Shown one piece after another: positions 2,292-5,626 of a stretch of 57,272 nucleotides of DNA (position 1 is its first letter; the number at the start of each line of letters is the position of its first letter). The DNA lies in assembly GCA_028275825.1 (NCBI GenBank), contig JAPWTX010000006.1, positions 1 through 57,272 of the forward strand, read 5' to 3'. Both the position numbers and the translations under genes were made by a program. The DNA comes from Ignisphaera sp. (GTDB lineage Archaea > Thermoproteota > Thermoprotei_A > Sulfolobales > Ignisphaeraceae). The notes under the pieces were generated by a model that saw only the letters and a program-made list of their open reading frames with translations, searched no databases and was not told the origin of the DNA.

Positions 2292-2783
2292 TCATACAAT
2301 GGATGTAGATGCTATGTTTTCTCCCTGATAACTTCCTCTGTAAGTGAATTTTGTCGCTCGATCAAGCTTTATGAATAGTAGTTGTGCTATTTGAGCCCCT
2401 CTTTCAATTTCTATTCCATGGTAATTGAAAACAGTTAGAAGTCCTTCACCTCTCCCTTCATAGCCGGGATCCCATATCGCGGTATATATTGTAGCACCTG
2501 ATCTTAGCAATGTTGACCTCGGTATTGCGAGAGCTATTGTATTTGAAGGTACTTTAACTACTTCCATGTATCTAATTTTATATGCCCCAGGCTCTAAATG
2601 GTATACGCCATCTTTTTCCTCAACCTCCTCAACTTCAGCTACCCTCTTTGAATTGATTCGTATAGAGCCTTGTCCACGAAATGCAAATACCTTATCCAGG
2701 CGAAGTCTCATACCACCGCAATCCACATCATCTACATTGAGCTTAAATATCTCTATGAGGGTTTCTGGTGATAATACAACCAT
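2292..2783 (-). CDS. dut: dUTPase (DCD/DUT family)
   Basis: A 163-residue member of the dCTP deaminase/dUTPase fold. Motifs: PRSTLLRSG (phosphate-binding arm), IWDPGYEGRGEG (nucleotide-binding hairpin), GAQIAQLLF and the C-terminal YRGSYQGEN. The family hydrolyses dUTP or deaminates dCTP to keep uracil out of DNA and feed dTMP synthesis. Sequence alone does not securely separate the two activities; dUTPase is the usual crenarchaeal annotation. ATG at 2783 is chosen over GTG 2789 because GGTG sits 5 nt before it. Same strand as, and just downstream of, glmS. Confidence 0.8.
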   Translation of the reverse strand: MVVLSPETLIEIFKLNVDDVDCGGMRLRLDKVFAFRGQGSIRINSKRVAEVEEVEEKDGVYHLEPGAYKIRYMEVVKVPSNTIALAIPRSTLLRSGATIYTAIWDPGYEGRGEGLLTVFNYHGIEIERGAQIAQLLFIKLDRATKFTYRGSYQGENIASTSIV

Positions 2784-2802
2784 TTTCACACCAAAAATTC
2801 AA

Positions 2803-4623
2803 TTAATGAACAGTTTTTGATAAGTATCTAGGGCTATCAATAGGTCTTTGCAGAAGTACTCCTAGCTTGTATGCTATGAATTGAAGTGGTATACCTAGCA
2901 TTACTGGTGCAAGGTGCCTATCAACATAGGGGACAATAACCTTTATCAAGTTGCTATCAAGTTCACCGAGCTTTTGCTCTATCTCAAATCCTATTGCAAT
3001 AGTGGTAGCATTTTTTTCAAGAGCCATTGAAAGCAAGCTATAGGTGGCTTGCAAAGCTTGCTTCTCTACTGGTAGTATAAAGAGAGCGAATACACCTTTC
3101 TCAAGCAGGGTCTGGGGACCATGCCTGAACTCGCCTGCCTCAACCCCCTCAGCATGTATATATGCGGTTTCCTTAAGTTTAAGTGCACCTTCAAGGGCTA
3201 GAGGGTATGTTAAACCTCTCGAAACTACATATCCACTCCTACACTGTATCATACTCTTTGCAGCTACCTCTGACTGCGACTCTATATGCTTAAGATGATG
3301 ATACAAACTCGTACTTAGCTTCTTTACCTCATCTATTCTGCTTCTAAATTCTTCATCTTTAACTCTTTTAGCATGCCATGCAGATTTCAAAGACAGTAGG
3401 TAAAGTAATAGCAATGTTGATGCAAATGTTTTTGTAGCAGGAACAGCAATTTCCGGCCCCGCTCCTATAGGTAGGTATAAGTTTGAAAGATTAGAAATTT
3501 TTGACCCTATGTAATTTGTCATGCCCAGAATTGTAGCTCCCCTGAGCTTCGCCTCAAATACAGACGTGATAACATCACTCGTCTCACCTGATTGTGAAAT
3601 GGCTATCACCACCGTTCCTGGACCAACACTATCAACATGATATAATGGGAACTCTGCAGCGCTAACCACAATTGGTGTTACTCCAGCTAATTCAGTAAGA
3701 TAGTAAGAACCTATGTATGCTGCATGGAGACTAGATCCGTTTGCAATCATAAATACTCTTTCTGCATCAACTATAAGCCTTGCTGCAAAATTCAAGTACT
3801 TTTCTTGAATTGAATAAAGTGTTCTCATTAATGCTTCTGGTATCTCATATATTTCCCTCAACATGTGATGAGGATATCCGTCTTTGTCTGCATATCTAGG
3901 ATCTATATCTATAGAATTGAATTTCTTTTCAACTTTAATGCCATCAATGGTCTCTACATAGATTCCTAGAGGACTTGCTAGAGTTATTTCGCCATACTCT
4001 AATCTGAAGTACCTATCCACAAGACCTAGTAAAGCACCTCTACTAGAGGAAAAGGCTATAAAATCCTTCGAAACTCCAACATAGAGCGTAGGGCCATGAG
4101 AATAGGCTAACAAACATCTGCAGGTAGAATCCATAGCTACAAGACTAAAGTAACCATCAATCCCCGTTAATGCTCTTCTAAAGACATCTCTAAAATCATT
4201 AGTAGTACGATGCTTTTCGATAAGATGTGCAATTAATTCAGCATCACAACGAGAAATGATCCTATGTCCTTCAACAATTAAGCTATCCTTTAGCGCTTCG
4301 TAATTTGCTAAAGCCCCATCCTCCACTACAGCTATTCTATTGTTACAATCAGTATGTGGCTGGGTGTTATCAGTATGAGGTTTACCGTGAGTAGCGTACC
4401 TTGTATGACCAACTGCAATCCATGAGTTTAAATTCCTTAAGTTATACTTATCAGCAACGCTATCTATACGTTGTGCATCTTTATACACCACAACCTCGCC
4501 ATTAGAAAAAACAGCTATACCACTCCCATTGAAACCTCTATACTCAAGTTGTTTAAGCCCCTTTATAACATACTCCATCACATTTTGATGCGTAGGAGAC
4601 AAAACCGCGAAAATTCCTCCCAT
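2803..4623 (-). CDS. glmS: GlmS-type glucosamine-6-phosphate synthase with a defective glutaminase domain
   Basis: 606 residues with full-length GlmS architecture: N-terminal Ntn glutaminase-like domain (1-230) and two SIS isomerase domains (about 280-606). The isomerase half keeps SQSGET, EGALKLKE, RHGP and the C-terminal SPRYLSKTV lysine, so fructose-6-P/glucosamine-6-P chemistry looks possible. The glutaminase half is unusual: the protein begins MGGIF where the family has MCGIF, so the nucleophilic Cys is missing, and the oxyanion HNG motif reads EDG (residues 101-103). The Arg (HTRYATHG) and Asp (CDAELIAHL) remain. ATG 4623 has AGGTG 8 nt upstream; an earlier GTG (4632) would give MCKMGGIF, with a Cys displaced by three residues. 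Confidence 0.9.
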   Translation of the reverse strand: MGGIFAVLSPTHQNVMEYVIKGLKQLEYRGFNGSGIAVFSNGEVVVYKDAQRIDSVADKYNLRNLNSWIAVGHTRYATHGKPHTDNTQPHTDCNNRIAVVEDGALANYEALKDSLIVEGHRIISRCDAELIAHLIEKHRTTNDFRDVFRRALTGIDGYFSLVAMDSTCRCLLAYSHGPTLYVGVSKDFIAFSSSRGALLGLVDRYFRLEYGEITLASPLGIYVETIDGIKVEKKFNSIDIDPRYADKDGYPHHMLREIYEIPEALMRTLYSIQEKYLNFAARLIVDAERVFMIANGSSLHAAYIGSYYLTELAGVTPIVVSAAEFPLYHVDSVGPGTVVIAISQSGETSDVITSVFEAKLRGATILGMTNYIGSKISNLSNLYLPIGAGPEIAVPATKTFASTLLLLYLLSLKSAWHAKRVKDEEFRSRIDEVKKLSTSLYHHLKHIESQSEVAAKSMIQCRSGYVVSRGLTYPLALEGALKLKETAYIHAEGVEAGEFRHGPQTLLEKGVFALFILPVEKQALQATYSLLSMALEKNATTIAIGFEIEQKLGELDSNLIKVIVPYVDRHLAPVMLGIPLQFIAYKLGVLLQRPIDSPRYLSKTVH

Positions 4624-4693
4624 CTTACACACACCTAGAGAATAGCAATTTTGTAGCTCAGATATAAGGATTCAACAAGGATTCCAAATCATT

Positions 4694-5440: not shown

Positions 5441-5626
5441 TTAGCTACACTCTGGGTAGTCATCTGGAACCTTTGCTCTGAAATACTTCCCAGATCCTGG
5501 ATCCTGGAACAGACCTATCTTAACACCCTTCCTACCCTTTGGAGAGAGAGCCCACACCTTCTTGGGTACAAGCTCTTTCTCAGTACCTTCAGGTGTCTTT
5601 ACCTTAACAGGCTTTGTACAGGCCAT
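5441..5626 (-). CDS. creN7: Chromatin protein Cren7
   Basis: 61 residues matching Cren7 across its length: [20 protein letters not shown], then [18 protein letters not shown] and a tail ending [14 protein letters not shown]. Cren7 is a small SH3-like DNA-binding protein conserved in Crenarchaeota that coats double-stranded DNA in the minor groove and bends it. It is the main taxonomic marker in the window. ATG is preceded by GGTGAG; a TATA box (TTTATAAA, around 5661-5668) lies about 40 nt upstream, as expected for an abundant protein transcribed alone. Confidence 0.95.

Follow-up and report, generated by a model that had tools for sequence, protein, structure and literature searches.

The glutamine-dependent glucosamine-6-phosphate (GlcN6P) synthases of the GlmS/GFAT family (TIGR01135) combine an N-terminal Ntn glutaminase domain with an isomerase half of two SIS domains. 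An E. coli GlmS in which the nucleophile was replaced in the laboratory by a single change, C1A (structure 3ooj), folds and still binds glutamate. The SIS fold also occurs without a glutaminase in the GlcN6P deaminases GlmD (NF041128) and NagB-II (NF046059), which are SIS-only proteins of about 325-345 aa. Retention of an unused Ntn domain is found among relatives of asparagine synthetase, the beta-lactam synthetase and carbapenam synthetase, which are class II amidotransferase relatives with a non-catalytic glutaminase domain but with another synthetase domain, chemistry and lineage than the protein considered here. For the human GlmS counterpart, the equivalents of C1, N98 and G99 (E. coli numbering, as below unless stated otherwise) are among the residues relevant for hydrolysis, and the glutamate pocket comprises the equivalents of R73, W74, T76, H77, H86 and G99 (PMC7000685).

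Here we describe GlmS2, a GlmS paralog encoded in a stretch of 57,272 nucleotides from Ignisphaera sp. (contig JAPWTX010000006.1; hereafter the window). It shares with GlmS/GFAT the two-domain architecture, the length and identical isomerase catalytic residues, but lacks Cys1, Asn98 and the gate residue Trp74, falls into a clade of its own, stands in a catabolic gene context and coexists with a canonical GlmS. The window protein would receive the annotation GlmS, its score against TIGR01135 being 462.6 bits (cut-off 418.05); four of five further GlmS2 proteins also exceed this cut-off, the fifth being just under it (417.8). Against GlmD it reaches 58.3 bits (cut-off 580) and against NagB-II 121 bits (cut-off 430). 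By sequence GlmS2 is a member of the GlmS family, and by their cut-offs it is neither GlmD nor NagB-II, with which it has in common the SIS isomerase half and the reaction proposed below, and from which it differs by its full Ntn domain. We suggest that GlmS2 is likely to be a catabolic GlcN6P deaminase in which a non-catalytic glutaminase domain has been retained.

Gene Structure and Start Codon

The features of the locus are given in Table 1. The protein begins MGGIFAVLS, with MGGIF in place of the MCGIF of the family and thus Gly for the catalytic Cys, and residues 101-103 (codons 4315-4323) read EDG where GlmS has HNG at the oxyanion hole. The isomerase motifs SQSGET, KLKE and RHGP and the C-terminal Lys603 are all present. 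These elements had been pointed out in a preliminary description of the sequence, and the reading frame, its start and each of the motifs were verified. The same description had noted that a GTG nine bases earlier would give MCKMGG, a displaced Cys unlikely to function. The GTG is real, but the extension is absent from orthologs, which rules it out as the start and supports the view that an upstream Cys would be irrelevant. In the closest ortholog, the sister gene (80% identity), a stop codon lies directly before MGG, so that the frame opens there, and other orthologs have ATG, GTG or TTG placed exactly before GG; MGG is therefore the true start.

Table 1. Position of glmS2, its domains and diagnostic codons, and adjacent genes in the window.
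Feature	Position	Strand	Basis or remark
glmS2, GlmS paralog, 606 aa	2803..4623	-	start ATG at 4623, stop codon 2803-2805
In-frame GTG extension (MCK-)	4624..4632	-	GTG at 4632, nine bases upstream of ATG; judged non-start
Glutaminase-like Ntn domain, residues 1-240, predicted catalytically dead	3904..4623	-	Pfam GATase_6/GATase_7; Ntn fold in AF2 model; catalytic residues lost
Codon of Gly at nucleophile Cys1 position	4618..4620	-	alignment
Codon of Arg75 (E. coli Arg73, glutamine/glutamate binding)	4399..4401	-	kept 63/63
Codon of Asp102 (E. coli Asn98, oxyanion hole)	4318..4320	-	alignment
Codon of Asp127 (E. coli Asp123, glutamine binding)	4243..4245	-	kept 63/63
Isomerase half, two SIS domains, residues 245-606	2806..3891	-	Pfam SIS; catalytic residues conserved
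Codon of Pro395 (E. coli Ala400), clade-diagnostic, VASTK sugar-binding loop	3439..3441	-	alignment
dCTP-deaminase-like gene, downstream of glmS2	2292..2789	-	adjacent in 7 loci; named by eye
Neighbor gene F2, 224 aa	4694..5368	-	conserved; beside glmS2 in 8 Ignisphaera-group loci

The Glutaminase-Like Half

Alignment with related GlmS homologs, the check that had been proposed for this locus, separates the two groups: GlmS2 sequences from many families have Gly1 (63/63) and Asp98 (62/63, the remaining one having Glu), as against Cys1 and Asn98 in all 35 canonical thermoproteotal GlmS and in E. coli. The channel gate W74 is missing in 63/63 GlmS2, while the glutamine-pocket residues R73, G99 and D123 are invariant in the same 63. 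With Gly for Cys1 and Asp for Asn98, the glutaminase of GlmS2 is predicted to be unable to work, and the earlier description of a dead-looking glutaminase beside an intact isomerase half is well supported by residue conservation across the clade.

Within GlmS2 divergence has been faster in the glutaminase-like domain than in the isomerase (mean pairwise identity 41.5% vs 54.8%), a gap that is not seen in canonical GlmS (GlmS1; 53.6% vs 53.1%). In the window species pair, with dS near saturation, dN/dS is ~0.11 for the glutaminase-like domain and 0.06 for the isomerase of GlmS2, and 0.16 and 0.05 for the two corresponding domains of GlmS1; judged by these ratios, the former glutaminase domain is still under purifying selection in this pair. 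A sequencing error or a decayed gene is ruled out by the fixation of Gly1 and by purifying selection on both domains in the sister species (dS near saturation). The N-terminal domain has probably been retained as a lid with a structural or ligand-binding role but without ammonia delivery.

The Isomerase Half and Structural Model

The window protein has S303, S347-S349, T352, E481, K485, E488, H504 and K603, and across the clade S303, S347-Q348-S349, E481, K485, E488, H504 and K603 are kept in 63/63 sequences, with position 352 being Thr in 60 and Ser in three. As read from the alignment, the isomerase half keeps the residues for the interconversion chemistry of GlcN6P and fructose-6-phosphate (Fru6P). 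A comparison of 25 GlmS2 with 19 canonical sequences found only five positions that are fixed differently, C1G, N98D, S328A, A400P and A496G; the first two, which are the only ones in the glutaminase domain, correspond to the nucleophile and the oxyanion Asn, and Pro400 is present in 63/63 GlmS2.

An AlphaFold2 model built with eight related sequences has a mean pLDDT of 89.5 and an intact Ntn fold. Its top Foldseek match is the E. coli GlmS C1A mutant with glutamate bound (3ooj), in which the nucleophile loss is of the same kind; that mutant is a single laboratory change, whereas GlmS2 is natural and carries N98D as well. The modeled isomerase half superposes at about 2.5-3 A on the isomerase domains of solved GlmS structures, and the whole-chain TM is only 0.56, which we read as the domains being placed differently relative to each other in the model.

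Phylogeny and Distribution

The window genome (G000, 98% complete) encodes a canonical GlmS on another contig (C42:115-1935, 697.6 bits), which starts TTG-Cys-Gly-Ile-Ile and has HNG intact. This identifies the window gene as a paralog and rules out that it is the only GlmS of the cell. In a tree of 99 sequences a single branch with support 100 separates all 63 GlmS2 from E. coli GlmS, and a profile search over 229 genomes of the class found 80 GlmS2 at >=697 bits, the next sequence being a GlmS1 at 553 bits. A sample of the phylum added members in further families, so that GlmS2 occurs across the order and also in other families of Thermoproteota. Given one clade with support 100 and members across families, loss of the glutaminase is old and apparently happened once. 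Several complete single-contig genomes carry GlmS2, and the species with such genomes include some that appear to be cultured.

Four genomes with nagA and no GlmS2 (G020, G030, G040, G049) encode SIS-only proteins; their reading as GlmS2 that had shed the Ntn domain was unsupported, since they grouped with neither GlmS clade (with long-branch warnings). Elsewhere, a GlmS-like frame at G062:C2:8818-10602 contains six internal stops (4 TGA, 2 TAA).

Gene Neighborhood and Co-occurrence

The recurrent neighbor of GlmS2 is the GlcNAc6P deacetylase NagA (TIGR00221, 327 bits, above its cut-off). Among the 55 class genomes having both, the two genes lie <=300 bp apart in 20 and <=5 kb apart in 24, in divergent, convergent or tandem order; this linkage is seen elsewhere in the clade, the window genome itself having no nagA. 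Over the 229 genomes, 55 have GlmS2 and NagA, 25 GlmS2 only, 17 NagA only and 132 neither (odds ratio 17, p = 8e-19, uncorrected for phylogeny). Counting genera within seven families gives 23 with both, 3 with GlmS2 only, 4 with NagA only and 32 with neither (CMH p = 1.4e-7). Classical nagB (TIGR00502) was found in 0/60 relatives searched.

Further neighbors of GlmS2 are a GAT-type PTS EIIC, AnmK, a PBP4B-like hydrolase, a PRK02947-type SIS protein and GH84, and GH20 lies near nagA in two Ignisphaera loci (L098, L089). The gene context of the relatives points to catabolism. PTS components (EI, HPr, EIIA and/or EIIB) occur beside nagA and/or glmS2 in Thermoproteota at L146, L147, L148, L149, L096, L042 and L043: at the first four, which belong to other families, EI, HPr and mannose-type EIIA and EIIB adjoin GlmS2; at L096, EI, HPr and EIIA are near nagA; and at L042 and L043 a GlmD-like gene adjoins both nagA and GlmS2. 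Clusters at L082, L074, L170 and L175 contain AnmK, a PBP4B/beta-lactamase-like hydrolase, GH84 or NagA, and a PRK02947-type SIS gene, though some loci lack one or more of these, and look like systems for scavenging the amino sugars of bacterial peptidoglycan. One contig (L094) carries two nagA genes, each adjoining a PRK02947-type SIS gene, which suggests two amino-sugar specificities. In the window, the conserved neighbor F2 has no Pfam or NCBIfam match, and the product of the gene at 5441-5626 looks by eye like a small chromatin protein of the Cren7 type.

Proposed Function of GlmS2

The preliminary description had left three options for this protein: use of free ammonia, partnership with an outside amidotransferase, or operation in reverse as a deaminase. 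The gene context of relatives favors the third. In the proposed reaction, GlcN6P + H2O -> fructose-6-phosphate + NH3, GlmS2 would take the last step after uptake of GlcNAc (by PTS or otherwise), phosphorylation and deacetylation by NagA. With GlcN6P supplied from GlcNAc6P by NagA, or from other sources, the SIS site would open the sugar ring, deaminate it and release Fru6P and ammonia. Losing Cys1, Asn98 and the Trp74 gate would remove glutamine-derived ammonia, which would oppose deamination, and glutamine-dependent synthesis would be left to the canonical GlmS of the same cell. While the residue replacements are read directly from the alignment, the direction and the substrate we infer. The SIS-fold deaminases GlmD and NagB-II offer a precedent by analogy; as GlmS2 is nearer to GlmS than to either, its deaminase function would be a separate recruitment.

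A deaminase is the most likely reading given a canonical GlmS in the same genome, the catalytic pattern, linkage and co-occurrence with nagA, the PTS, AnmK and GH84 neighbors, and the absence of classical nagB from the 60 relatives searched. Against it count the lack of NagA in the window genome, in its sister (G010) and in 25 of the 80 GlmS2 genomes of the class, the GlmD-like gene that adjoins nagA and GlmS2 at L042 and L043, and the consideration that a simple deaminase needs no whole Ntn domain with R73, G99 and D123 invariant. Since neither nagA nor GH20 was found in the window genome, GlcN6P in this species must come from a different source; the genome does encode a PIG-L deacetylase, but its gene is unlinked. 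Close to a kinase-like gene the genome also has a second GlmD-like protein, SIS-only (C36:9534-10604, L085), which is a rival candidate for the GlcN6P deaminase of this organism. We therefore regard the deaminase function as quite probable for the clade as a whole and as somewhat less so, though still favored, for the window organism.

In a bolder version, which we offer as speculation with rather poor odds, GlmS2 would be an archaeal GlcN6P deaminase, present throughout the phylum, that arose from GlmS when ammonia delivery was disabled. The domain that once was a glutaminase would now act, through the retained R73, G99 and D123, as a glutamate/glutamine sensor and gate amino-sugar breakdown by nitrogen status.

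Two other enzymatic readings seem improbable to us, and about equally so. GlmS2 might aminate Fru6P with free or partner-delivered ammonia, as a back-up of GlmS in ammonia-rich hot springs: the catalytic positions of the isomerase site are identical, the reaction is reversible in principle, the glutaminase is lost, and GlmD with ammonium has been used in the amination direction for synthesis in engineered yeast (PMC12385614). Yet a canonical GlmS is already in the genome, and the neighbors are degradative (NagA, PTS, GH84, AnmK) rather than genes of UDP-GlcNAc synthesis. Alternatively, GlmS2 might be a deaminase or isomerase for a related amino sugar phosphate (GalN6P, a glycated amine or a MurNAc-derived sugar) instead of GlcN6P, with which the clade-specific S328A, A400P and A496G near the sugar site, AnmK and the PRK02947-type SIS protein in some clusters, and deglycases among other SIS proteins (PRK11382) would agree; its commonest partner is nevertheless NagA, and the GlcN6P-binding residues of GlmS are retained. 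That GlmS2 is a non-catalytic regulator pairing with canonical GlmS, or sensing for it through the kept glutamate/glutamine pocket, is very improbable: the invariant pocket residues, the constraint on both domains in the sister pair (dS near saturation) and the glutamate-binding C1A mutant as nearest structure would suit it, but it would have no need for conserved isomerase catalytic residues, and glmS2 goes with nagA and PTS genes, not with glmS1.

Implications

Among open-licence papers none to the point was found on GlmS2, on archaeal GlcNAc catabolism with GlmS-like deaminases, on Sulfolobus NagA or on a Thermofilum PTS, and earlier reports may exist elsewhere. Because both catalytic features that define the glutamine-dependent enzyme are lost, GlmS2 should not be called GlmS in function, and as TIGR01135 assigns glutamine-dependent GlmS to a clade without the two key glutaminase residues, annotations in Thermoproteota are probably wrong in dozens of species. 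If GlmS2 is a GlcN6P deaminase, it would provide the final step that is missing from GlcNAc use in archaea with nagA and PTS genes and without nagB, and it would represent a natural amidotransferase turned into a reverse, ammonia-releasing enzyme with its dead domain retained.
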